DNA from: Opitutia bacterium
GTDB taxonomy: Bacteria > Verrucomicrobiota > Verrucomicrobiia > Opitutales > Opitutaceae
Direction: 5' to 3'
Assembly: GCA_947472765.1 (NCBI GenBank)
Contig: CANJCM010000033.1
Coordinates: forward strand, 1-47,180
DNA: 47,180 bases
Positions within the stretch are counted from its first letter, which is position 1; every line of letters starts with the position of its first letter. The position numbers and the translations under genes are program-made. This document shows, piece by piece, positions 7,093 through 33,178 of the stretch. The notes under the pieces were generated by a model, which was not told the origin of the DNA, ran no database searches, and was given only the letters and a program-made list of their open reading frames with translations.

Positions 7093-8316
7093 ATGATACT
7101 TGTGTCCGCCTTCCTCCGCTCCTGCCGCCGTCATCTCGTAATCGCTGGTCTTGCGCCACTCGTCATCGCGCTGGTCGGTTGTGGAGCCAAAGGCGGAGCC
7201 GGCACCGCCAAAGGGCGAAAGGGCGGCGGACCAGCACCGGTCGTTGTCGGCAAGGCGATCCGCAAGGTCGTGCCTCTCGAAATCGAGGCCATCGGCACCG
7301 TTGAAACCATCCGGGGCGCGAACGTCCGCTCGCAGGTCACAGGGGTGGTCCAGAAAATCGCGATTCAGGAAGGCCAGGACGTGCAGGCCGGCGATCTGCT
7401 GCTCGAAATCGATTCGCGGCCGTTCCGCAATGCGCTCCGGTCCTCCGAGGCCGACAACGAAAAAATCCGCGTCCAGCTGGAATACGCCCGTGGCCAGGTC
7501 GCGCGATACCGGACCCTCAGTTCCGACTCGATGGTCTCGAAGGAGCAGTTCCAAAAGATTCAGGACGACGCCCGCGCCCTCGAGGCCCAGTCGATGGTGT
7601 CGGAGTCGGCCGTCGCCAACGCCAAGCTGCAGCTCGAGTATTCCTCCATCCGCGCTCCGCTGTCGGGCCGCTCGGGTAACATCAATGTCCGCGAGGGCGA
7701 CCTCGTCCGGGCCAACGAGGCCGGCATTGCCCTGCTGACGATCAACCAGCTCTCGCCCATCAACGTCACGTTTGGCGTGCCGCAGCAGTATCTCTCGGAA
7801 ATCAACCGCTACCGCACCAAGGCGACGCTCGCGGTCAAGGCCGTCCCGCCCGGCCTCGACCCTGCGCCCGAAATCGGCGAGCTGAGTTTCGTCGACAATA
7901 CGGTCGATCCCGCGACGGGCACGATCAGGTTGAAGGCCACGTTCCCGAATTCCAGCCACCGACTCTGGCCGGGGCAGTTCAGCACCATTAGCATCACGCT
8001 GACGGCGCCCGAGGTGCTCGCGATCCCCGCCAGCGCGGTCCAGACCTCGCAAACCGGCCAGCACGTCTTCGTGGTGCGTGAGGACAAGACCGCGGAACGC
8101 CGCGAGGTGGTCGTCGAGCGCTCGCTCCGCGGCGATGCGGTCATCTCGAAAGGCCTGAAGGAAGGCGAGGTCGTCGTGACCGAGGGTCAGCTTCGCGTCA
8201 TGCCGGGCGGCGCCCTCGAGATTCGTTCCGCCAACGGTGAACTTGCCCCCGGCGGGGAAGGCAAGGCCAAGTCGAAGTCCAAGACCAAGGAAAAGGAGAA
8301 GGAGAAAAAGACATGA
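7093..8316 (+). CDS. RND efflux periplasmic adaptor (membrane fusion protein), lipoprotein
   Basis: Links an inner-membrane RND pump to an outer-membrane channel. The product has 407 residues. The N-terminus has a basic start, a hydrophobic core and a lipobox LVGC with C30, so it is predicted to be a lipid-anchored adaptor facing the periplasm. Family segments follow: a barrel-sandwich half (VRSQVTGVVQKIAIQEGQDVQ, about 77-97), a coiled-coil hairpin, the second lipoyl half (APLSGRSGNINVREGDLV), and beta-barrel domains. It resembles MdtA-type adaptors. The C-terminus is a Lys/Glu-rich tail, part of whose codons form the ribosome site of the next gene. It overlaps the permease gene by 4 nt (ATGA), which fixes their partnership. 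The substrate is unknown. Confidence 0.92.
   Translation: MILVSAFLRSCRRHLVIAGLAPLVIALVGCGAKGGAGTAKGRKGGGPAPVVVGKAIRKVVPLEIEAIGTVETIRGANVRSQVTGVVQKIAIQEGQDVQAGDLLLEIDSRPFRNALRSSEADNEKIRVQLEYARGQVARYRTLSSDSMVSKEQFQKIQDDARALEAQSMVSESAVANAKLQLEYSSIRAPLSGRSGNINVREGDLVRANEAGIALLTINQLSPINVTFGVPQQYLSEINRYRTKATLAVKAVPPGLDPAPEIGELSFVDNTVDPATGTIRLKATFPNSSHRLWPGQFSTISITLTAPEVLAIPASAVQTSQTGQHVFVVREDKTAERREVVVERSLRGDAVISKGLKEGEVVVTEGQLRVMPGGALEIRSANGELAPGGEGKAKSKSKTKEKEKEKKT
8301..8304 (+). promoter_or_regulatory. Shine-Dalgarno site for the RND permease
   Basis: GGAG lies 8 nt before the ATG at 8313, within a purine-rich run that also encodes the Lys/Glu tail of the adaptor. It is one of the few clear ribosome sites in the window. 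Confidence 0.6.
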
Positions 8317-13330: not shown

Positions 13331-13528
13331 AGGCTGCTGACGCAAGCGACCCCGGCCACGCGGGGCAACTCCATGCTTTCGCGGCCCGTGTCCGAACCGT
13401 TGACAGGGGCGGCACCCTTTTCTCCGCCGACACCGGCCTGAAATCCTCTTTGCTTCCACCCCACCCGCCTTCGACGCACTCGCCGTCGGTCTGGCCGAGC
13501 CCCGTTGTCGTTGCCGTCCCTCCCCGCC

Positions 13529-14653
13529 ATGCCCCTCCCGCGCCACCTCGTTCTCATCCTCGCCGCTCTTGCCTCGCTCGCTGGCGGTCCCTTCGCCAGC
13601 GCCGCCGCCCCGCTCCTTGAACGCGGCATTCTTGCCCCGGCCACGGCCGAGTATCCTCATCCGCGCTACGTGAGCCTGGCCCGGATGAACAACAACGACC
13701 TCCTCGCTCTCTACGCCGGCATGTCGGATGCCAGCCCGGATCGGGCGGCCATCCTGTCCAGTTACTCCACCGACCACGGTCGCACGTGGTCGCGGCCCGT
13801 CGTCGCGGTCGACAGCCCCGAAACGATGGACGCCGATCCGAGCATCGTGGTGGCGAAGGATCGCGTCCTCGCTGTCGCCACCACGCGCAAGGCCAACGAA
13901 CTAATCTGGACGAAGTTTCCCTTTGCCACCTCCACCGACCACGGCCGCACCTGGAAACCCAGCGGTGAGATCAACCACTTTCACAATTACAGCAGCGGCA
14001 AACTGCAGGCCGCGACGCGGCTCCGCACCGGCCGGCTCCTCCTGCCGTATTGCTTCGATCAGATTCTCGAGACGAAGGGTGCCGCCATCAAGGAGCAGGC
14101 CGAGCGGAACATGATCTCGGTCGCGTCGGTGCTTTACTCGGACGACGACGGCCACACTTGGAAGCCCGGAGGTGACCTCGACATCAAGGGCGTCCCGGGT
14201 GGCGGCGGCATCAACGGCCTCGACGAAATTTGTCTTACCCAGCTCGCCGACGGATCAATTTACGCCCTGTGTCGCACCGGCGTCGACCGGCTTTACGAGG
14301 CGCGCAGCACCGACCAAGGCCTGACGTGGACAAAACCACAGCCCAGTGCGCTCGTCGCCTCCAACGCCCCCGCGAGCATGATCACGCTCAGCCGGTCCGA
14401 CGGCGCGGTCGTGGTGATTTGGAACGAAACGGCGAAGAACGATCGCAAGCCGCTCGCCGTGGCCTACTCCACCGACGGCTGCCGCACCTGGTCGAAGTCA
14501 CGCGTCGTCTTCGAGGACTATTCGCCGTACCCGAGCATCGTGCAGGCGGCCGACGGCACGATCGTCGTCTCGTGGTTTCAACGCGCCGCCGACAAGACCA
14601 CGTCGATCGGCTTCGCCCGCTTCAACTGGGAGTGGCTCACCAGCGGCAAGTGA
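13529..14653 (+). CDS. secreted sialidase-fold (BNR repeat) protein
   Basis: A 374-residue exported protein with a six-bladed-propeller signature. I start it at the ATG at 13529 (MPLPRHLVLILAALASLAGG), which gives a standard signal peptide cleaved near ASA. Five Asp-box motifs (S-x-D-x-G-x-T-W type) are visible: STDHGRTW twice, SDDDGHTW, STDQGLTW and the variant STDGCRTW. An RY motif (HPRYVSLARM) after the leader resembles the exo-alpha-sialidase-like proteins common in Planctomycetota and Verrucomicrobiota. Activity on sialic acid is not implied; many of these act on unknown glycans. It is upstream of, and on the same strand as, the lactonase-dehydrogenase pair (gap 157 nt), and may supply their substrate. 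Confidence 0.85.
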   Translation: MPLPRHLVLILAALASLAGGPFASAAAPLLERGILAPATAEYPHPRYVSLARMNNNDLLALYAGMSDASPDRAAILSSYSTDHGRTWSRPVVAVDSPETMDADPSIVVAKDRVLAVATTRKANELIWTKFPFATSTDHGRTWKPSGEINHFHNYSSGKLQAATRLRTGRLLLPYCFDQILETKGAAIKEQAERNMISVASVLYSDDDGHTWKPGGDLDIKGVPGGGGINGLDEICLTQLADGSIYALCRTGVDRLYEARSTDQGLTWTKPQPSALVASNAPASMITLSRSDGAVVVIWNETAKNDRKPLAVAYSTDGCRTWSKSRVVFEDYSPYPSIVQAADGTIVVSWFQRAADKTTSIGFARFNWEWLTSGK

Positions 14654-14728: not shown

Positions 14729-14810
14729 ACTTGCGGTCCGACCCGGCCCTCCTGTACAAACCCACGCCCTTGACGCCCCCTCGCGCCCTTCCCCAACTCA
14801 CCCCGTGCGC

Positions 14811-15755
14811 ATGAACCGTCGCGATTTTCTCCGCACCGCTACCGCCGCCGCCGTCCTCCCCTCCATCGTCCGCGCCGCCGACGATGAATCGCCGATCCCG
14901 GTCATCGATACCCACACGCACTTCTACGACCCCACCCGGCCGGAAGGCGTACCGTGGCCCCGACCGACGGAGTCAGAAATCTATTCCACTCATCTGCCAA
15001 CGGCCTTTCACAAGGCCTTTGGCGCGATCCCGGTACTCGGCACCGTCGTCGTCGAGGCCAGTCCCTGGCTCGAGGACAACCAGTGGTTGCTGGATCTTGC
15101 GCGGAGTAATTCCGATATCGTCGGCATCGTGGGCAGCCTGAAGCCCGGCGAGCCCGAGTTCGCCCGGCAGCTCAAGCGCTTCGCGGCGAATCCGCTTTTC
15201 CGCGGCATTCGGATCGGTGCCGGCACCGTCACCACCGTCGGACAGGCCGCCGTCATGACCGACCTTGGACGGCTCGCCTCGGCCAATCTGTCTCTCGACG
15301 TGATCGGCCGCGGTCCGATCGTCGAGGGCACGCAGCAAATCGCTCGGAAGTGGCCGAACCTGCGGATCATCGTGAACCACCTCCCGTTTCCCGAGTGGGA
15401 TGGCAATGTGCCGGCGCTCCGCGAAGGACTGGCCGGCCTCGCCAAACAACGGAATGTCTTCGTCAAAGTCTCCGCCGTCGTGCGCCGGGTGGACGGCAGG
15501 ATCGTCGATGACCCCGAGTCTCATCGCCCGGCGCTCGACGCGCTGTTCGAGTTGTTCGGCCCGGACCGACTGGTCTACGGCTCGGACTGGCCCGTGTGCA
15601 ACAAGGTCGCGCCGTACGGTACCGTCCACCGAATCGTCGCGGAGTACTTCGGTACTCGCGGCCGCGTCGCGGCTGAGAAATATTTCTGGCGCAACTCCCA
15701 CGCCGCCTACCGCTGGGTCCCGCGCGGACCCGCCGCCCTGCTTCACCTCGGATGA
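14811..15755 (+). CDS. Tat-exported amidohydrolase (sugar-lactonase-like, COG3618 type)
   Basis: Predicted metal-dependent TIM-barrel hydrolase of the amidohydrolase-2 group, whose studied relatives hydrolyse sugar lactones such as L-fucono-1,5-lactone. The product has 314 residues from the ATG at 14811; a GTG two codons earlier (14805) is also possible. The N-terminus MNRRDFLRTATAAAVLPSIV is a twin-arginine signal (R3-R4), so the enzyme is folded and probably loaded with metal before export. The metal motif H-x-H is H35/H37 (IDTHTHFYD), a later His lies in VNHLPFPEWDG, and the late metal Asp is D259 in YGSDWPVCN. Its stop overlaps the start of the dehydrogenase fusion (ATGA), which strongly suggests consecutive steps: oxidation of a sugar to a lactone, then ring opening. 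Confidence 0.85.
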   Translation: MNRRDFLRTATAAAVLPSIVRAADDESPIPVIDTHTHFYDPTRPEGVPWPRPTESEIYSTHLPTAFHKAFGAIPVLGTVVVEASPWLEDNQWLLDLARSNSDIVGIVGSLKPGEPEFARQLKRFAANPLFRGIRIGAGTVTTVGQAAVMTDLGRLASANLSLDVIGRGPIVEGTQQIARKWPNLRIIVNHLPFPEWDGNVPALREGLAGLAKQRNVFVKVSAVVRRVDGRIVDDPESHRPALDALFELFGPDRLVYGSDWPVCNKVAPYGTVHRIVAEYFGTRGRVAAEKYFWRNSHAAYRWVPRGPAALLHLG

Positions 15756-18700
15756 AATCCCCCCTCCGCCCCGCCCTGGTCGCCTGCTGTCTTCTCGCCT
15801 TCCTCGTGCCGCCCCGGCTTCGAGCGGCGGAAACCCCACCAGCGCCACCGCCGGCGGGTGCCACCAGCGTGACGCGGGACTCAGCGGCGAATTTCTGGGC
15901 GCTCGCGCCCACGGCGGACGGCAAGCGCGAGCTCGTGGCAATGTTCGCGCAGGATCCGACGACATGGAGGCCGGTCGTGATCGAAAATCTCGAGCCCGGC
16001 GAATGGCAGTCGCTGCGCACCACCCCGGACCGCACGGTGGTTGTGACCGGACCGAAGGGCAGTCGGGAATTCGACTTTCGCTATCCCGATCGTGGCGCCG
16101 CTCCCGCCCGGCCGCCGGCCCCCGCCGCGGCGGAGACTCCGTGGCGGATGACTGCGCGAATGCCGGCGAGCAATCATGACATTTCCGCCGCCGTCGTGAA
16201 CGGCCGCATCTACGTCGCCGGCGGCCACACGCACAACTGGGGCTACCCGAGCCGCGACCATTTCTTCGACGAACTTTGGGAACTCGATCCCGCGACTTGG
16301 ACTTGGAAGGTTGCCGCCAAGCTCTCCCGGACCCGGGTGTACTGCGCCACGGTCGCATTCGGTGACCGCGTCTGGATCGTCGGCGGCGACGTCTTCGACG
16401 ACGGGAACCAGCGTGTCTCCACCACACTCGTCGAATCTTACGATCCCCGCACCGGCCAGATGACGCGCGAACCCGATCTCCCGGTCGCGGTCCCGGTGCC
16501 GTTGACCGGCGTGGCCGCCGGCCGGCTCTGGATGGTCGGCTCGCGTGACCGGCAGGAACCCGCGCGCTTCGCCAGCATTGGGCCCGGCGAAAAGACCTGG
16601 CGCACCGAATCCGACGCCCTGCCCGCGATGTGGGCTCTCTCCGGCGCGGCGTTGAACGATCGTCTCTACGCCTGCGTCCCTAACACCGGACTCGCGGAAT
16701 TCGATCCGGCCACGAATCGCTGGTCTGTCATTCCCGGCCCATCGAAGCCGCGCTCTTCCCAGGTCGCTGCGTGGCGCGGCGAGCTCTGGCTCGTCGGCGG
16801 CTGCGATCTCGCCAACTGGGGTGAGGTCTCGATCTACAATCCCACCACGCGCACCTGGCGCCGCGGACCCACGCTGCCGATTCAGGTCGCCTGGGGCGCC
16901 GCCGCGGTGGTGAACGATCAACTCGTCGTCATGGGTGGCGCCGGGGTCCATCCGACGCCCTCCGCCCGCGAATACGATTTCAGTGATCGCACCTTCGTCC
17001 TGCCCGCGTCTGCGATTCCACCCGCCCCGCCAGCGCCGGAGGCCAGCTCCCTGCCGCGTTGGAACGACTCGAAGTTGAGCGGTACTGGCGCCGCCGGCTT
17101 TCCGTTCACGACCGAGGAATTGTTTCCCGGCCTGAAGTTCACGCAGCTCGCCTCGATCCTCCGGCTGCCCGGCTCCACTTCCGGCGCGCCTGAGCGCTGG
17201 CTCATCGCCGAGGTGAACGACGCGGTGTGGACCGTTCCCAGCGGACCGGGCACGCCGAAGCGCGAGCCGTTCCTCAACCTTCCGGCGCGCTCGAAACGCC
17301 CGACGCACACGATGGCGCTGGCGCTCCATCCCAAATATCCGGCCGAGCCCTACGTCTACGTGCTCTACAATCTCCGGCAGCCCAAGCCCGCGGAAAACAT
17401 CGTCTCCCGCTTCACGGTCGAGCTCTCCGACCCGCCGCGGGTGCGCGAGGACAGCGAGCAGGAACTGCTCCGGTGGCCGAGCGACGGCCATAACGGCGGC
17501 GATCTCCAGTTCGGTCCCGATAGCTATCTCTATATTTCCGTCGGCGACCGCAGCGCGCCCGGCGATCCCAACGACCTCACGCAACGCCTCGATATGATCA
17601 CCGGCGGCATGCTGCGGATCGATATCAACAAGACTTCACCCGGGAAAAATTACGCTGTCCCCGCCGACAATCCGTGGGTCGGACAGGCCGGCATCCTCCC
17701 CGAGTTCTGGGCCTACGGTCTGCGTAATCCATGGCGGATGCATTTCGCCCCGAATGGGGATCTCTGGGTCGGCGACAACGGCGACGACAGCTGGGAGATG
17801 ATTCACCTCGTCAAGAAGGGGCACAACTACGGCTGGAGCGTCTTCGAGGGGGCGCACCCGTTCAAACGCCAGCGCCAGCTCGCCGGCCCGACTCCGGTGC
17901 ACACGCCGCCCGTGATTGAGCTGCCGCATTCGGAGTCCCACTCGGCCATCGGCGGACTCGTCTATCGCGGTCGCAAGCTGCCCGAACTCGTGGGCGATTA
18001 TGTGTTCGGCGACTACGTCAACGGCGTCATGTGGGCCTTCCGCTGGGACGGCAAGGCCCCGCAGAATTTCCGCAAGATTGCCGACACCCGCAGCGCCATC
18101 CTCTCTTTCACCGAGGATCGCGATGGCGAGATCGTCATGGTCCGCACCGACGGCCAGGTGCACCGGCTCATCGCCGCACCGCCCGTCGTCGGACCGAAAG
18201 CGCCCTTCCCCACCCGGCTCAGCGAAACGGGATTATTCTCGGCCACCGGCGGTCATGTGCCCGCGCCCGGCGTAATTCCCTATGAGGTCAACGCCGGCGT
18301 TTGGTCCGATGGCGCGATCGCCCGCCGGCTGCTCGCCGTTTCGCGGCCCAACGCAGCGCCCGCCACCGACGCGGCCGGGGCGCTCGATTTGCCGGATGGC
18401 ACCGCGGTCCTGCGCACCCTCGAACTGCCCACCTCCAACGGTCCCCGCCGGATCGAGACGCAACTCATGTATCGCGAGCACGAGTCCTGGCGGTTCTACA
18501 CCTACGCCTGGAACGAGGCGCAGACGGATGCCGAACTCGTCCGCGAGGACGGCGAGACGCGCCCCGTGCCCGGCATCGCCAACCGCCAGTGGAAATTCTC
18601 CAGCCGCGGCGAGTGCACGATCTGCCACTCGACGCAGACCCATTTCACCAACGGTCTGAACCTCGCGCAGCTCAATCGCGACGGCGACTTCACGTCCGTC

Positions 18701-19138
18701 GGCCGCCGCGTCGAGAACCAGATCGGGGTGCTGGCGGGAGCCGGCATCATCGCCCTGCCCGCGGGCAAGGCGCCGGCGGATCTGCCGCACAAAGTGGATC
18801 CGTTCGATCCGAGCCAGCCTCTCGCCACGCGGGCCCGTTCCTATCTCGATGCGAACTGTGCCCACTGTCACCGCCTCGGCGGCGTCGGGGGCCGTGCGGG
18901 CTTCCAGTTTCTGGAATCCATTCCGATGGCCAAGGCCGGCATCATCGATGGCAAGCCGCTCGTGCCGTTGCTCGGTGCCGACTCGCGTGTCGTGACGCCG
19001 GGACGTCCCGACCGATCAGAACTCTATCATCGGATCACGCTCGAAGCCGGCGGCCGCATGCCGCTGATCGGCAGCGAGCAGACGGACAAGGCCGGCGTCG
19101 ATCTGATCCGCCAGTGGATCGAGCAGCTTCCGCGCTGA
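15752..19138 (+). CDS. exported Kelch + glucose/sorbosone dehydrogenase + di-heme cytochrome fusion
   Basis: A 1128-residue exported protein. After a signal peptide (cleavage near residue 24-26) comes a spacer of about 100 residues. Next is a Kelch-type propeller (about 130-420; repeats such as [34 protein letters not shown]). Then follows a six-bladed glucose/sorbosone dehydrogenase domain (about 455-800) with family segments [31 protein letters not shown] and [11 protein letters not shown]. The C-terminal 300 residues match the HNE_0200-type domain ([11 protein letters not shown]...[14 protein letters not shown]) and hold two heme-c sites, CTICH (955-959) and CAHCH (1036-1040). Expected role: PQQ-dependent oxidation of a sugar in the periplasm, with electrons passed to its own hemes. 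It is coupled to the lactonase by a 4-nt overlap. The Kelch addition at the N-terminus is unusual; it may bind a glycan or the BNR protein. Confidence 0.85.
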   Translation: [1128 protein letters not shown]

Positions 19139-21734: not shown

Positions 21735-24700
21735 TTAGAAGCTCATCTTCGCCGTCAGCATATAGCTCCGGGGCGGCGTGAAGTTGTAGGTTCCCGGTAT
21801 CGTCATGATTCCCGGATTCGAGATATCGTTGTTCCGCGCCACCGTGACGGTGCTGTTGGAGGTCGAGTTCGGGGCATTCTCGATGATGGGCCGGCTCATG
21901 TTGAACAGATTGTCGATCGCCAGATCGAACTGGATGGTTTTGGGTGCCAGCCGACGGCCGGCCTCCTTCAATGTGACGGTATAAGACACATTGGCCGAAG
22001 CTTTGGTGTACCCGCCGGCAAAGACGTAGTTGGTCGCACCGCGCGTCGGATCAGCAATCGCCAGATTCGGATTGTTGGGATCAGGGATGGTGTCCGCCGT
22101 CCGCCCGCCGAGCACCTGCCGGCCGCGATAATTCAGCGCCAGCCCGGCGCGCACGCCCCTGGCCCAGCCGTTCGTGAAACGGTAATCGGTGGCAATGTTC
22201 GCGGTCAGGGCGGGCCCACCGCTTTGCCGGAAAGCCGTCGTGGTGGTGGCCTCAATTCCGGGCAGCGTCGTGTTCACATAGCTGTTCCAGGCGTCAACCA
22301 CTGCCTGAACGCGGAGTTGATTAATTTTGGTCGGATCATTCAGGGCCGGGTTAATCGAGGCCTGATTTTGGGCGTTAAGAATGATGCCTGTATCAGTCAG
22401 GATCTGGCGCAACAAGGGATCCTTCTCCTTCACCCAGCCGGTGAGCTCGGGCCAGGCATCTTTCTGCACCGGTTTGTTGTTGGCGGCATTGATAATGAGC
22501 CGCCAATTACGGGTGAGATTTGCCGTAAGCTCCGCCTCGTACCCCATCGTTTCGCTGGTGAGGGTGGAATAGACATCGCGGCCCGGGAGCACGGCCAGGC
22601 CCCTGACGTTGCCGCCCGCATCCTCGCTGAGGTTCCCGATCGAGGGTGCGCTGGCGATCCGGTTGACGTTGGCCATGAAGCTGAAGCCGACACTGTTGAG
22701 CTGTCCCTTCTGGTGGGCCTTGTACCAGCCGAGAGAGAGGTACATTTTTCCGTTCGGTTGGGTCAGGCGGATGCCGGCATCATAGCTTTGGGACGACGTC
22801 GGCGGGATGAGCTGCACGTAGGCGTTCAAATTGCCCGCGTTCAGATCGAAGGTGGTGCTGTTGTTGGCATAGACGCCGAGCCAGGAGGTCAGGTTCACGA
22901 CCGCACCGTACGTGCGGGTGTTGACGCCACTCACCACGTCCGGGGGACTGGTGTCGTCCTGGAATCGATCATTGGCGTACTGCGCAAGCGGGACGTTCAC
23001 GCCGTTGACGGCGGTCCTCGGCCGGGTGGCGGCGGGAATCGGGGCAGAGATGGCCTTTCCAGTCGCATCCTTCGGCGTATAGAACAGGCCGTAATAGCCC
23101 GGTCCCGCCTTGGGCCGATGTTTGACGTAGGATCCGTCCCAGTCGGCAGGCATGTCATCGGCCAGCAGGAACTGGTCGTCGACCAACCGGGTGAGATCGC
23201 GGCGCACCGCGGCAATCAGCACGAGGTGGTTCTTGAACAGGTTCAGATTCACGGCGGCCTGGATGAACTTGTATTTCTTCGCGAGATCATCCGAGAACCC
23301 CGGGCGGCTCGGCTGAATATACCAGCGCGGCGTGAGCACGTTCTTCGTCCCCAACGTGGGGTCGGCCACCAGCATCGAGGTCTGCGTGGGATGCCGGCTG
23401 GGCAGCTGGCCGCGCAGGTCGGTATACTGCCGGGTGTACACGGATTGAGCGTTTTGGTCGGCCTGGCCAAAAAAGGAGCGAAAGTCAGCGCCCGGGATTA
23501 CCCCGTTCTGCAGAGGCAGGATGAAGAAAAACTGACGGCCGGCCTGTTCCAGATTTTGGATTCCGGCCAGCACTCCCGCCTGCAGCTTGCCCCAGCGCGT
23601 GTCTTTTACGTAAGCGATCTGCAGATTTGCATTATTGTACTGGGGCTCCTTGACGAACGAGAAGCCGGAGTTGTCGGAATAGGGATGCAGGAAATAGGGA
23701 TTCGGGCTGCCGTCCGGCTTGTTCCGATTGATGTCGAGCAGCATGTTGTACATGCCGCCAGTCGCCGTGTATTCGGTCCACCGTTCCACCTTATTGTAAT
23801 TGCCTGAAAGTTCGGCAAAAAATCCCTCAAACGGCCGATAGGTAAAATAGACGGCCAAATCTTTGGCCCGCTCCCAGCCAACGGGAAACTTCCGGTCCAA
23901 GTCCCAGAGCGGCGTGAAGTCGCGGTCGGGCACCTTGAAGAAGGGCGAACCGGCGGTGGCGGCCGCAAAACGATCGGGGTTGTCCCAGACTTCGGTCATA
24001 CCCGTGTTGGAGAGATTGAAGCCCACGCTCTTGATCGGCTTGCCGTTGAGATAATTCGTCGCAGTCGCGCTGTGGGCGGCGCCCTTCGTCTGAAACATAT
24101 TCAGGACGTTGAAGATCCGGTCGGGATTCTCCGCGTCACGGACGAAGCGGCGCGGGGAGCGCTGGACGCCCGCCACGGCCATCTGATTCGTCGTCATGGC
24201 CAGGTCGATTCCGGACGGTTTGAATTTTCCATCCCACGCGGAGGTGTTGTCCCGCGAATGATTGCTGCCGGATGACTTGTCGGTCGTGCGGAATTCAAAT
24301 TCGCCGCGAACCGAGAACTTGGGCGTGAGGTTATAGGTGGCGGCCAGATGCACGCCCTTGCGGTCCTCCCATTCACGTTCCCGCCAGGTTTCCGCGTTGG
24401 ACCACAGCACGTTGGCCCGCACCGCGGCCTTGTCGTTGAGCGGCTGATTGAAATCAGCCGTCAAACGATACGTGTTGAAGCTGCCCACCTGGGCCCGCAC
24501 CTCGCGAATCGTCTTCGACGTCAGGGCCTGCTTCGTGACGGTATTCTGCGTTCCCGCCGATCCACCCGCGCCGAAGAGCGAAGCGTTGGCCCCGCGCGCG
24601 AAGTCAATGCGATCAATATTATAGCTGTCGCCCGCGATCGCATAGGGGAAGAAATTATGCGCCGGGGTATTGGCATTCTGGCCGCGAATCCGGACCCGGA

Positions 24701-25061
24701 CAAAAGTGGGTCCGTCCGTGCCCTGCAGGCCGTCACTGGTGAATTGGGTGCTATTGACCGAAAATTCGGCGGCCTTGCCGGCGTCGTTGATATTGAAGGC
24801 CTCGAGAAATTCCGACGTCAGGACGGAATACGCCACCGGCGTATCCTTCAAGGCGGTGGTCATGCGGCCACCGGCCAGGGAATTGGCGGCGACGAAGCCC
24901 ACATCGGAATTGGCGCTGACGTTGAAGGGATCGAGTTTAACCGCGGTGTCTTCCTTGGCGGAACTCGAATTGGCCGCCGCCTGGCCGAACAGCGGCGGCA
25001 AGCTGAAGCCGATTAGCGCAGCCGTTGCTGCGAAGCATAACTTTACAGGGGTTGGTATCAT
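21735..25061 (-). CDS. TonB-dependent outer-membrane receptor
   Basis: Outer-membrane gated channel for TonB-driven uptake of a large nutrient, probably a carbohydrate or siderophore; the ligand is unknown. I start at the ATG at 25061 (MIPTPVKLCFAATAALIGFS), which gives a signal peptide ending near GQA and 1108 residues. The TonB-box-like segment and plug domain follow (VKLDPFNVSANSDVGF..., then ALKDTPVAYSVLTSEFL and the DRIDFARGANASLFG plug end near 170). The beta barrel ends in the outer-membrane signature, RSYMLTAKMSF with C-terminal Phe. The style (DPF-V box, long barrel) is that of the large Verrucomicrobiota receptor family. It is a single-gene unit with its own terminator. A nine-G tract and a small dyad lie upstream. 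Confidence 0.92.
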   Translation of the reverse strand: MIPTPVKLCFAATAALIGFSLPPLFGQAAANSSSAKEDTAVKLDPFNVSANSDVGFVAANSLAGGRMTTALKDTPVAYSVLTSEFLEAFNINDAGKAAEFSVNSTQFTSDGLQGTDGPTFVRVRIRGQNANTPAHNFFPYAIAGDSYNIDRIDFARGANASLFGAGGSAGTQNTVTKQALTSKTIREVRAQVGSFNTYRLTADFNQPLNDKAAVRANVLWSNAETWREREWEDRKGVHLAATYNLTPKFSVRGEFEFRTTDKSSGSNHSRDNTSAWDGKFKPSGIDLAMTTNQMAVAGVQRSPRRFVRDAENPDRIFNVLNMFQTKGAAHSATATNYLNGKPIKSVGFNLSNTGMTEVWDNPDRFAAATAGSPFFKVPDRDFTPLWDLDRKFPVGWERAKDLAVYFTYRPFEGFFAELSGNYNKVERWTEYTATGGMYNMLLDINRNKPDGSPNPYFLHPYSDNSGFSFVKEPQYNNANLQIAYVKDTRWGKLQAGVLAGIQNLEQAGRQFFFILPLQNGVIPGADFRSFFGQADQNAQSVYTRQYTDLRGQLPSRHPTQTSMLVADPTLGTKNVLTPRWYIQPSRPGFSDDLAKKYKFIQAAVNLNLFKNHLVLIAAVRRDLTRLVDDQFLLADDMPADWDGSYVKHRPKAGPGYYGLFYTPKDATGKAISAPIPAATRPRTAVNGVNVPLAQYANDRFQDDTSPPDVVSGVNTRTYGAVVNLTSWLGVYANNSTTFDLNAGNLNAYVQLIPPTSSQSYDAGIRLTQPNGKMYLSLGWYKAHQKGQLNSVGFSFMANVNRIASAPSIGNLSEDAGGNVRGLAVLPGRDVYSTLTSETMGYEAELTANLTRNWRLIINAANNKPVQKDAWPELTGWVKEKDPLLRQILTDTGIILNAQNQASINPALNDPTKINQLRVQAVVDAWNSYVNTTLPGIEATTTTAFRQSGGPALTANIATDYRFTNGWARGVRAGLALNYRGRQVLGGRTADTIPDPNNPNLAIADPTRGATNYVFAGGYTKASANVSYTVTLKEAGRRLAPKTIQFDLAIDNLFNMSRPIIENAPNSTSNSTVTVARNNDISNPGIMTIPGTYNFTPPRSYMLTAKMSF

Positions 25062-25103
25062 CGAGGGCACAGGTCTTTGGTTTGGGGCTCCCATCCCGGA
25101 AAT

Positions 25104-25121
25104 GGCGTGCATGCGCACGCC
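25104..25121. promoter_or_regulatory. dyad in the TonB receptor leader
   Basis: GGCGTGC and GCACGCC are perfect 7-bp inverted arms around ATGC. The dyad lies about 43-60 nt upstream of the chosen receptor start, so it may be an operator or a leader hairpin. Confidence 0.35.
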
Positions 25122-25333: not shown

Positions 25334-25801
25334 TCAGCGCCCGGCCAGCGCGGCGCCAGCCGGAGCCAGCGACCAAGCCTGCAGGATGGCTCGATCTCCC
25401 GCCGAGAGCCGTGCTTCCGGGTGAATCGGCAGGTAGAACCACATCGGCATCTCCCCTTCTTCAACCTCCTTCCAGCTTTCGCGCCGGGCCTTGTTCTGCT
25501 GATTCGGCGCCAGCCGATTCCAGGTGGAGAAGTTCAGCTCCTTGCGGCCCTCGTGCACATCGCGCGCGACCAGCCAGGAGATCGGTGCAACGCGACTGTA
25601 CCAAGGCCACACGCTCTCGTTCGAGTGACAATCGTAGCAGGCCCGGCGCAGGACCGCCCGCGCCTCCGCCGTGGCGGGAACCTCGGTTTCCACCGGTGGA
25701 TTCCGCCGATCGACGGGCACCAGCTGAATCGCCAGCAACCCGACGGGGAGCGAAACCGCCATCCATCGCAACAATCGCCGGAAGGGTTTTATCGGTGTCA
25801 T
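25334..25801 (-). CDS. heme-binding domain protein (CxxCH)
   Basis: A 155-residue protein with one N-terminal membrane anchor or signal (about 12-30, WMAVSLPVGLLAIQLVPV) and a periplasmic domain. It has a single heme-c site, CYDCH (C55, C58, H59), followed by the characteristic SNESVWPWYSRVAPISWLV and the GRKELNFSTWNRL segment of the Haem_bd family. A later Met (EMPMWFYLP) is a plausible heme ligand. The frame is open upstream, but the ATG at 25801 begins the conserved domain architecture. Its role is probably electron transfer or heme handling. It sits between the TonB receptor (same strand, downstream) and a divergent secreted protein gene. Confidence 0.85.
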   Translation of the reverse strand: MTPIKPFRRLLRWMAVSLPVGLLAIQLVPVDRRNPPVETEVPATAEARAVLRRACYDCHSNESVWPWYSRVAPISWLVARDVHEGRKELNFSTWNRLAPNQQNKARRESWKEVEEGEMPMWFYLPIHPEARLSAGDRAILQAWSLAPAGAALAGR

Positions 25802-26021
25802 GCGTTGAGCGTAAGCCTCCCAGGGCAAAAGGTCAAAGCAGGGACCCGTCCTCGCCAGTTCCGGTTTGTCGGTGGCGGGGTTCCTGCAACCGTGACCGTT
25901 CACCAGTGCCAATCCACGGCTGCTGGTTTCGCGTCGGTTTGGGACCCGATCGGAAGGGCCCGATTCAAGATCAGGCCCGGGTGCGATTGACGCGAGACGG
26001 GCGCAGTCTGCGAATATCGGA

Positions 26022-31228: not shown

Positions 31229-33178
31229 ATGCACTCCTTTCTTCGTGCGTGTTTCCTGAGTTCCATTCTCGTCGGTGCCGCGCGGGCGGACGATGCCACG
31301 GAGGCGGGCGCGCTTCTCGTCGAGCATCCCACGCTCGAGAACCTCGGCTTCCAATGGGCCATCACGGGCGATGCCAACCGCAATGCGACCGTGGCCGTGC
31401 AGTATCGCGCGGTGGGCGAAGCGGCCTGGCGGCCGGCGCTGCCGCTGCTGCGGATCGGCGGCGAGAGGGTCTACCGGGCGCGCGAACATCTCGACTACAC
31501 CGTGCCCGACGGTTTCGCCGGCAGCGTGCTCGGGCTGAATCCCGATACGGAATACGAGTGCCGGCTCGAACTTACCGACCCGGACGGCGTGAAGGGCGAG
31601 GCGGTGCACGCGGTGAAGGTCCGGACACGCGCCGAACCGAAGTCTTTTCAGGGTGGCCGCGTGTTGCATGTCTACCCGTCGGATTACAAGGGGACGAAAC
31701 AGGAACCGAATTTTACGAGCTTGCTCGAGGCATACTATGGCGCGGGGCTTGGCGACTGGAGCGTGGTGTGGGAGCGACGCGCGCAGCCGGGCGATACGAT
31801 CCTGCTGCACGCGGGGCTCTACAAGTCGGAGCGGCGGAACTACGTCGATCCGATGATGACTCCGTTCGACGGGTCGATGTCGCTCGCGCTGAAAGGCACG
31901 CGGGAGAAGCCGATTACCATCAAGTCCGCAGGCGACGGCGAAGTGATCTTCGATGGCGACGGCAACCACCGGCTCTTCGACGTGATGGCGTCGGAGCATC
32001 ACATCTTTGAGGGGCTCACGATCCGGAACACGGATGTCGGCATCTTCGCCGGCCAGAAGGAAGTCGCCGGAGCGGTCGGGCTGGTCGTCCGCAACTGCCG
32101 GTTTGAGCAGGTCGGGCTCGGCGTGTGGACGGAGTCGGCGAACTCCCGCGACTTTTATATCGCCGACAATCTGTTCATCGGCCGCGACGACCGGTTCCGG
32201 TTGATCGGCTGGGCGGCGGCGGGCTCACCGGCCGTGGGCGCGTATGGGTCGCACCAAGTGGTGAGCTACTACGCGATCAAGGTGTACGGCCCGGGCCACG
32301 TGATTGCGCGCAACGCCATCGCGTACTTCCACGATGCCATCGGAATCTCGACCTATGGCACGCCGGAGAAGGATCCCGAGCGTCAGCCGTCATCGATCGA
32401 CATTTACGGGAACGACATTCACCTCGTGAACGACAACTTCGTCGAGGCGGACGGCGGCATGCACAACATCCGCGTATACGGGAACCGTGGCATCAACGTG
32501 TCGCAGGGCGGCTACAGTGCGCAGCCGGTGTTCGGCGGTCCGGTGTATTTCATCCGCAACCTACTCTATCACGTGCCCTCGGGCGTGGCGTTCAAGTTCA
32601 TGGGCAAGCCGGCCGGGATTCTGGTTTATCACAACACGATCATCGGCGAGCAGGTGTCGCGGGATCCGTATCCGAACGCGCATTTCCGCAACAACCTCTT
32701 CCTCGGTCGCGACACGCCGAACCGTGAGATCATGTCGTGGGCGTTCGCGACGAGCGCCTACAGCACCGACTACAACGGCTACCGGCCGAATCGCGGCGTG
32801 AAGGAGCAGTATGTCTGGCTGGCGCCGGCGCCGGGCGGGACCATGTACACGCCGAAACCGACCGACTGGCGGAAGTTCGCGACGCTCGCGGAGCTGGCCG
32901 CGGCGACGGGCCAGGAAAAGCACGGCGTCGAACTCGACTACGACATCTTCGAGCACCTCGTGGCCCCGAATCCAGCGCAGCGGCATGCGGTGTATCACGC
33001 GATGGATTTGAATTTCCGGCTCAAGCCCGGGAGCAAGGCGGTGGATGCGGGCGAAGTGTTGCCGACGGTGAACGACGGCTTCACCGGGCGCGCGCCGGAT
33101 CTGGGTGCGATGGAAGTCGGCGCGCCGGAGCCGAAATACGGACCGAGGTGGATTACGTGGCAGCCGTTCTACCGCTAG
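31229..33178 (+). CDS. secreted right-handed beta-helix protein
   Basis: A 649-residue exported protein with a short signal peptide (MHSFLRACFLSSILVGAARA). An N-terminal fibronectin-III-like part (about 25-130, with the VLGLNPDTEYECRLELTDPDG closing strand) is followed by a pectate-lyase-like parallel beta-helix (about 135-500). Repeated rungs include the SAGDGEVIFDGDGNHRLFDV, HHIFEGLTIRNTDVGIF and YIADNLFIGRDDRFR segments. A tail of about 140 residues ends with the common LKPGSKAVDAGEVLP and GFTGRAPDLGAMEVG signature. Most likely it binds or cuts an acidic polysaccharide; the active site cannot be named. The TAG stop lies in the terminator stem. It is upstream of a secreted esterase, separated by 323 nt. 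Confidence 0.85.
   Translation: MHSFLRACFLSSILVGAARADDATEAGALLVEHPTLENLGFQWAITGDANRNATVAVQYRAVGEAAWRPALPLLRIGGERVYRAREHLDYTVPDGFAGSVLGLNPDTEYECRLELTDPDGVKGEAVHAVKVRTRAEPKSFQGGRVLHVYPSDYKGTKQEPNFTSLLEAYYGAGLGDWSVVWERRAQPGDTILLHAGLYKSERRNYVDPMMTPFDGSMSLALKGTREKPITIKSAGDGEVIFDGDGNHRLFDVMASEHHIFEGLTIRNTDVGIFAGQKEVAGAVGLVVRNCRFEQVGLGVWTESANSRDFYIADNLFIGRDDRFRLIGWAAAGSPAVGAYGSHQVVSYYAIKVYGPGHVIARNAIAYFHDAIGISTYGTPEKDPERQPSSIDIYGNDIHLVNDNFVEADGGMHNIRVYGNRGINVSQGGYSAQPVFGGPVYFIRNLLYHVPSGVAFKFMGKPAGILVYHNTIIGEQVSRDPYPNAHFRNNLFLGRDTPNREIMSWAFATSAYSTDYNGYRPNRGVKEQYVWLAPAPGGTMYTPKPTDWRKFATLAELAAATGQEKHGVELDYDIFEHLVAPNPAQRHAVYHAMDLNFRLKPGSKAVDAGEVLPTVNDGFTGRAPDLGAMEVGAPEPKYGPRWITWQPFYR

Follow-up and report, generated by a model that had tools for sequence, protein, structure and literature searches.

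A Tat-type amidohydrolase coupled to a Kelch-propeller-di-heme fusion in Opitutaceae: a possible exported oxidation module

Introduction

Heme-linked propeller dehydrogenases with lactonase-like partners are an already known kind of system. The soluble, pyrroloquinoline quinone (PQQ)-dependent glucose/aldose dehydrogenases, i.e., soluble glucose dehydrogenase (sGDH) and YliI/Asd of Escherichia coli, are built on a six-bladed propeller of the glucose/sorbosone dehydrogenase (GSDH) type with a catalytic His and an Arg-Asn pair. The AA12 quinohemoproteins, such as PDH of the fungus Coprinopsis cinerea, consist of a GSDH-like propeller and a cytochrome domain, which is a cytochrome b, as far as the available text describes them (PMC6881789), while the SO2930-type diheme cytochromes (TIGR03806) carry two CxxCH motifs in a C-terminal domain. 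L-fucono-1,5-lactonase and its COG3618 relatives (NF052480, PDB 4dlf) are amidohydrolases with an HxH motif and conserved His, Lys and Asp residues. Here we describe a gene pair that resembles all of these in part. It lies at positions 14811-19138 of a 47,180-nucleotide stretch of an Opitutia bacterium of the family Opitutaceae, Verrucomicrobiota (assembly GCA_947472765.1, contig CANJCM010000033.1), hereafter the window, and consists of a putative exported amidohydrolase, here named LAC, and a 1128-residue fusion of a Kelch propeller, a GSDH-type propeller and a di-heme domain.

The fusion shares the propeller, the catalytic His and the Arg-Asn pair with sGDH and YliI, whereas it lacks anchors of the Lys377/Arg406/Arg408 type and is joined to Kelch and di-heme domains. 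The AA12 enzymes are likened to it by description and not by aligned sequence, and its two CxxCH motifs are placed as in the SO2930-type cytochromes, although its score against their model stays below the cut-off. LAC differs from L-fucono-1,5-lactonase in being exported and in carrying Glu82 where 4dlf and distant homologs carry Gln, and most LAC relatives have Asn in place of the Asp. GSDH-diheme fusions without Kelch are common in relatives, whereas coupling to LAC is found just with the Kelch form. In Acidobacteriota, the heme-carrying, quinoprotein-type partner of LAC matches the acido-empty-quinoprotein group A and PQQ alcohol dehydrogenases (TIGR04528 and TIGR03075); these quinoproteins, eight-bladed by family, occur in other genomes and are not homologous to the GSDH part of the window. 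Our literature search found no paper uniting Kelch, a PQQ-dependent dehydrogenase, cytochrome c and Verrucomicrobia, and nothing on "acido-empty-quinoprotein"; Kelch and sorbosone dehydrogenase appear together in work on propeller evolution, the available text of which names them as separate families. New in this case are the pairing of LAC with Kelch as a core, a heme partner that looks exchangeable, and the erosion of the cofactor sites. We tentatively propose, with somewhat less than even confidence, that the pair is an exported oxidation module in which the propeller-heme part oxidises a sugar-like substrate, LAC converts the product and Kelch binds or docks.

Layout of the gene pair

LAC reads from an ATG at 14811 to a stop codon ending at 15755, with an alternative in-frame GTG at 14805, and its closest named relatives are found in Opitutaceae/Opitutae assemblies. 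The ATG of the fusion shares 4 nt (ATGA) with the LAC stop codon, an overlap that suggests translational coupling of the two genes. Relatives have the same two genes side by side, so the arrangement is not a chance one of open reading frames. A preliminary description of this DNA had reported a Tat-type amidohydrolase overlapping an exported 1128-residue fusion by 4 nt and had assigned Kelch, GSDH and two-CxxCH domains to the latter; the overlap stands as reported, and a Pfam/NCBIfam domain search returned the same three domains, to which an N-terminal extension left out of that outline is added here. The features are as follows.

14811-15755, + strand: LAC, Tat-type exported amidohydrolase (PF04909, COG3618-like), with HxH at H35/H37, E82, H190, K219 and D259
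15752-15755, + strand: stop/start overlap ATGA, read from the sequence
15752-19138, + strand: fusion protein of 1128 residues, start overlapping the LAC stop, with a secretory signal peptide judged by eye (residues ~1-26)
15842-16126, + strand: N-terminal beta-rich extension, residues ~31-125, from comparison with standalone Kelch proteins and the predicted structure
16139-17011, + strand: six-bladed Kelch propeller, residues ~130-420, from Pfam, the structure model and invariant residues
17057-18187, + strand: GSDH-type propeller, residues ~436-812 (PF07995), with His/Arg/Asn of the PQQ quinone site retained and the carboxylate anchors not
18209-19129, + strand: di-heme domain, residues 820-1126, with CxxCH at 955-959 and 1036-1040 and an invariant Met1103

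LAC and Kelch among relatives

The whole fusion was used as the query against 142 relatives, with at most five candidates scored per genome. Its Kelch part was found at 10 loci in nine genomes, and a LAC gene is directly upstream on the same strand at all ten, so that the lactonase-like gene and the Kelch protein are neighbours in relatives, as the preliminary description had proposed to check. Seven of these loci encode complete fusions and one more (G001:C57) leaves its contig within the heme domain; another (G001:C416) leaves its contig within Kelch, and the tenth (G017) encodes a standalone Kelch protein without a GSDH or heme domain. Most Opitutaceae Kelch proteins carry the GSDH-type propeller and the di-heme domain in the same chain. 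A relative of LAC was, however, found at none of 42 loci (43 gene copies) of Kelch-less GSDH-diheme fusions at E 1e-4; these are the top Kelch-less matches and not all of them, the flanks of several are truncated where a contig stops, and L048 shares its contig with a Kelch-LAC locus ~14 kb apart. Because LAC is present at 10/10 Kelch loci and at 0/42 Kelch-less loci, it partners Kelch and not the dehydrogenase, and it is no general partner of the GSDH-diheme type. The lactonase-dehydrogenase pairing on which the preliminary description had relied is therefore replaced by one with Kelch.

Named genomes were also scanned by LAC alignment, and the best 80 of 511 loci were considered. At eight of them LAC is followed by a Kelch-GSDH-heme fusion and at four by a standalone Kelch protein, one in Opitutaceae (L146, which is the G017 locus) and three in Acidobacteriota (L153, L160 and L209). 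The Kelch loci L153, L157, L160 and L209 were found via LAC and are not independent evidence for adjacency, and the other Opitutaceae Kelch loci among the best 80 repeat genomes of the whole-fusion search. At L160 the gene order is a quinoprotein-cytochrome c (777 residues, two CxxCH and a PQQ-type propeller), LAC, which it overlaps by 4 nt, and Kelch. Similar quinoprotein-cytochrome c genes adjoin LAC, with no Kelch seen, at the Acidobacteriota loci L177, L187, L192 and L193, and at L164, also of Acidobacteriota, LAC is followed by a PVC-type heme protein. The five Acidobacteriota quinoproteins score best with acido-empty-quinoprotein group A (TIGR04528) at 257-525 bits against a cut-off of 650, the lowest score coming from an open reading frame cut by a contig end. 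PQQ alcohol dehydrogenases usually have a vicinal Cys pair, which is missing in all four of the complete Acidobacteriota quinoproteins. Across the LAC loci, c-heme proteins account for 12 of 63 adjacent co-directional genes versus 11 of the 424 genes at least two positions away (p = 3.5e-6), and for 7 of 58 adjacent ones when five Kelch fusions are set aside (p = 0.003); the count covers 64 of the 80 loci, the 16 left out being those where the LAC gene was not recovered. As a side observation, a four-CxxCH protein with an FGE-sulfatase-like match is found directly upstream of LAC at two Acidobacteriota loci (L165:7006-8004 and L191:633-2492).

By sequence comparison, LAC and Kelch are a conserved core in Opitutaceae and a few Acidobacteriota. 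The heme dehydrogenase looks exchangeable, because LAC-Kelch occurs without the fusion and because L160 has an unrelated quinoprotein-cytochrome c in its place. These comparisons suggest that LAC and Kelch are the stable part, whereas the part that takes up electrons is replaceable, and this exchangeability in turn supports the exported oxidation module. Also in its favor are the excess of c-heme genes next to LAC and, as described below, the conserved heme-site residues, the retained His/Arg/Asn columns, the invariant Kelch residues and the sugar-acid dehydratase-type genes near two Kelch loci.

Several observations weigh against that module, among them the 0/42 result, the lost PQQ anchors, the missing PQQ genes, the Asn of most LAC homologs and the lack of a fucosidase match that are described below. 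Of the five Acidobacteriota quinoproteins, two pass the cut-off for ordinary PQQ alcohol dehydrogenases (TIGR03075), and only at L160 is a quinoprotein in place beside LAC-Kelch. Kelch orthologs occur in just 3 of 396 Acidobacteriota genomes, two of them already known, and at 51 of the 80 LAC loci, some of them contig-cut, the surrounding 4 kb contain no match to Kelch and no protein with CxxCH; LAC thus has other settings, and the pair is rare in Acidobacteriota. A sample of 384 genomes of the class yielded two Kelch relatives of greater distance (33-36% identity); in one of them (G446) LAC is absent over 19 kb, while the other begins at a contig end.

It might instead be that Kelch and the amidohydrolase form the functional unit, e.g., for binding and conversion of one periplasmic sugar derivative, and that the GSDH-diheme half, joined to it in Opitutaceae, has a different or merely anchoring or electron-relay role. 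The standalone Kelch proteins beside LAC (G017, L153, L160 and L209), the lack of LAC at Kelch-less GSDH-diheme loci and the loss of the PQQ anchors agree with such a unit, whereas at L160 it is again a c-heme, quinoprotein-type gene, not homologous to the GSDH-diheme half, that overlaps LAC. Moreover, the His/Arg/Asn residues of the propeller are invariant in 8/8 fusions and both heme sites are present in all seven fusions that reach them; because they stay invariant, the GSDH-diheme half is unlikely to be a passive passenger. We regard both the Kelch-amidohydrolase unit and the subsidiary role that it assigns to the GSDH-diheme half as unlikely.

The GSDH propeller, PQQ and the di-heme domain

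The GSDH part matches PF07995 with 117.4 bits (cut-off 25), whereas it scores 57.5 bits against the model of gdhB-type sGDH (TIGR03606), the cut-off of which is 434.55. Its best solved relative by sequence is the hedgehog-interacting protein (68.9 bits), with GSDH enzymes at 57.9 bits or less. For the PQQ site, the fusions and Kelch-less rows were aligned with four solved enzymes (YliI, 7cdy, 2ism and 3a9g); the own-genome PF07995 proteins L002, L007 and L008 are outside this alignment, and L028 and L049 are one gene. The sGDH sequence is not part of it either, and sGDH numbers were put on its columns via YliI motifs. The assignment of the Arg406 column is wholly our assumption, and we take that column to be the arginine common to AA12 and bacterial enzymes. 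The His144, Arg228 and Asn229 columns hold His, Arg and Asn in all eight Kelch fusions. The Lys377 column, in contrast, is Val in 8/8, and Arg is found in the Arg406 column of one of the eight and in the Arg408 column of none. The Lys377 column also varies among the solved enzymes, with Ala in 7cdy and Arg in 2ism and 3a9g, and the 24 Kelch-less rows (23 genes) have no Lys or Arg in the Lys377 and Arg408 columns and one Arg in the Arg406 column. A lack of PQQ-site residues, which the preliminary description had named as a point on which its reading could fail, is therefore half borne out: the catalytic His/Arg/Asn are kept and the carboxylate anchors are nearly all gone. The roles of His144, Arg228 and Asn229 in sGDH are given in the available part of PMC6881810. 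The AA12 enzymes are described, in the available text, as binding PQQ through residues that differ in part from those of sGDH, the contacts by Lys377 and Arg408 being absent (PMC6881789), so that the loss of the anchors leaves room for PQQ.

The gene pqqE was not found in the genome of the window (best PqqE score 63 bits versus a cut-off of 381), and PqqC was over its cut-off in 0/57 relatives, all nine Kelch genomes included. The same PqqC model was over the cut-off in 6/288 genomes of the phylum and in 0/6 Acidobacteriota genomes, a search result that does not show absence. Import of PQQ by non-producers is documented, and the available text of PMC12124388 lists five Verrucomicrobia that have an importer and no synthesis genes; by analogy, the host could scavenge or import PQQ. 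Elsewhere in the window's genome, a canonical GSDH whose frame includes a single CxxCH (L001, G000:C126:2518-6489) keeps both PQQ-site arginines, and it may scavenge PQQ, since these arginines are kept though neither pqqE nor pqqC was found.

These data bear on the classical cascade, in which a PQQ-dependent aldose dehydrogenase would produce a lactone for a true lactonase, both of them extracytoplasmic and the PQQ being acquired from the surroundings. The PF07995 fold, the conserved His/Arg/Asn, the beta-8 Asp kept by LAC of the window, the binding of PQQ by AA12 enzymes through other contacts and the documented import by non-producers, Verrucomicrobia among them, fit it, and imported PQQ could be used in this genome, where L001 keeps both arginines. 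The carboxylate anchors are, however, lost, the Arg406 column included in 7/8 fusions, the searches for pqqE and pqqC found neither gene, the matches to TIGR03606 and NF052480 are far under their cut-offs, and the LAC subfamily has mostly Asn at beta-8 and Glu rather than Gln at position 82. The classical cascade is, in our judgement, improbable, on a par with the Kelch-amidohydrolase unit.

The di-heme domain scores 194 bits against the SO2930 model TIGR03806, under its cut-off of 313.3, and 19.8 bits against the PVC-type heme-binding model TIGR02604, the cut-off of which is 122.2. Both CxxCH motifs and Met1103 are conserved in 43/43 copies of the Kelch-less GSDH-diheme fusions.

The LAC amidohydrolase

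LAC matches PF04909 with 121.7 bits. It starts with MNRRDFLR, which is of the twin-arginine type, although the TAT_signal match is weak (19.2 bits, below the cut-off of 22.7). Against the L-fucono-1,5-lactonase model NF052480, the sole model listed for 15 LAC members at E 1e-5, it scores 107.1 bits and does not reach the curated equivalog cut-off of 400. The HxH motif, His190 and the beta-8 Asp, which we take to be the defining residues of COG3618-type lactonases, are all present in LAC of the window. H35, H37, E82, H190, K219, S221 and N295 are invariant in 81/81 LAC homologs, whereas the beta-8 Asp (position 259, in the GSDWP motif) is Asn in 61/81 and is retained in 20/81, LAC of the window included. 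In a second set of 33 sequences, which overlaps the first, each of the 11 distant homologs (26-34% identity) combines Gln82 with Asp259; Asn259 is confined to the Glu82 background (61/81, and 15/33 in the second set). The change within the family looks like a shift of the carboxylate from one strand (beta-8) to another (position 82). In the LAC tree, the Kelch-associated rows fall within one supported group of 25 (100/98), in which L209 is a long branch and just three rows, LAC of the window among them, have Asp. The lactonase activity that had been assigned to LAC at first is uncertain, because the subfamily has a rearranged carboxylate.

Loss of the beta-8 Asp would be expected to stop hydrolysis. 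LAC could be a non-hydrolase, which the shift of the carboxylate from beta-8 to position 82 has turned into an isomerase, a lyase or a dehydratase with an oxidised (keto) sugar as its substrate. Glu82 in 81/81, as opposed to Gln82 with Asp259 in 11/11 distant homologs, and the restriction of Asn259 to the Glu82 background are as expected of such an enzyme, whereas LAC of the window and its nearest relative keep Asp259, and HxH, His190 and Lys219 are unchanged in 81/81. We consider this the least likely of the alternatives. Slightly less doubtful, but still below the classical cascade, is a previously undescribed exported system with a Kelch-amidohydrolase core, a redox partner swapped between two unrelated quinoprotein folds, oxidation of sugars by a cofactor other than conventionally bound PQQ, and a new, Glu82-based reaction on the oxidised product; both folds would, at the same low probability, have lost usual PQQ-site features, i.e., the carboxylate anchors in one and the vicinal Cys pair in the other.

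A protein of ~700 residues is coupled directly upstream of LAC at five Opitutaceae loci in four genomes (L145:6004-8004, L152:4304-6463, L155 with its end near 7895, L157:5803-8004 and L085:1619-3799). The copies are 71-77% identical and have no Pfam/NCBIfam match where scanned; a poor model (mean pLDDT 43.3) has a helical first half and a beta second half, and the protein is perhaps a polysaccharide lyase.

The Kelch propeller and the N-terminal extension

The Kelch region scores 77.2 bits against Kelch_1, and its repeats form a six-bladed propeller by Pfam and the model. The model of the fusion is reliable for residues ~31-420 (blocks mostly at 73-94, two at 62-64), while long segments of the GSDH and heme domains fall below 50 (mean 65.3, pTM 0.43). 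The Kelch model matches six-bladed Kelch domains such as those of NS1-BP (Z 31.2, rmsd 2.1 over 268 residues) and Keap1 (Z ~30). N141, H142, D143, R195, Y197, C198, R221, R334, Q337 and W381 are invariant in 13 sequences from two phyla; they are predicted to be on the pocket side, an orientation taken from the repeat and not from the model. The N-terminal extension also fronts all three Acidobacteriota standalone Kelch proteins (L153, L160 and L209), and several Opitutaceae fusions are without it; by these comparisons, it appears to belong with the Kelch part.

The sugar mutarotase NanM/YjhT was considered for Kelch and rejected, with a score of 27.4 bits against a cut-off of 256.35 and an hhalign alignment to E. 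coli NanM that spans just 110 columns of repeats. NanM is absent among the 50 structure-comparison matches listed, which carries no weight. Kelch relatives of NanM in vertebrates are without the catalytic region, according to the available text of PMC8141875.

Neighbouring genes and substrate hints

An exported BNR/sialidase-like protein (PF13088) is encoded at 13505-14653, 157 nt upstream of LAC, and had been put forward as a sugar-releasing partner. Scans of further Kelch-LAC loci (E 1e-10 in one, 1e-6 in another) gave no relative of it at those examined, and it was rejected as a member of the system, not being part of the conserved unit. Farther away in the window, a Haem_bd (PF14376) protein with one CxxCH (25334-25903, - strand) lies beside a 1127-residue TonB-type receptor (21735-25118). 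A 649-residue protein without a Pfam match, judged by eye to be a parallel beta-helix, is encoded at 31229-33178, 12 kb from the pair. G004 has a copy with 73% identity that lies 43 nt past the fusion, and G097 one with 53% identity ~4.5 kb from LAC; copies are located at L040:55-2004 and L083:655-2649.

Hints at the substrate from neighbouring genes are weak. Genes of the sugar-acid dehydratase type are near two Kelch loci, encoding UxuA in L041 and, in L047, a member of the enolase superfamily whose start looks Tat-like by eye, and sulfatases are also found near Kelch/LAC loci. An alpha-L-fucosidase gene follows Kelch in L153 and L227, which are close relatives, their fucosidases being 88% identical. 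L-fucose, suggested by L-fucono-1,5-lactonase as the nearest model, is at most a candidate substrate, since no GH29 fucosidase match was found in the genome of the window; there is none in G004, G015 and G017 either.

Proposed function and implications

In the exported oxidation module that we favor, the GSDH propeller-heme part would oxidise a sugar or sugar-like alcohol outside the cytoplasm, and the electrons would travel via the two c-hemes to the respiratory chain. LAC would convert what this oxidation yields, the simplest reaction being the opening of a lactone, while Kelch may hold the substrate or product or may dock LAC onto the dehydrogenase. The cofactor could be scavenged PQQ held in an altered manner, or something else. 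From the exported sugar-oxidation partnership first envisaged, the secreted pair, the two heme sites and the neighbourhood in relatives carry over, and the heme-carrying quinoprotein gene overlapping LAC at L160 agrees with it; the pairing of LAC with the dehydrogenase does not carry over, and the lost PQQ anchors and the negative searches for pqqE and pqqC count against it.

A PQQ-dependent dehydrogenase should not be inferred from the fold alone. For the Verrucomicrobiota GSDH-like/heme fusions, whose fold suggests a PQQ sugar dehydrogenase and yet whose anchors are missing, the association with LAC and Kelch gives a hint at a role, and it does so too for exported bacterial Kelch proteins; for either kind of protein, the literature found gives no known function. 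With an unrelated heme dehydrogenase swapped in beside the same LAC-Kelch core, a shared function in oxidation becomes testable.

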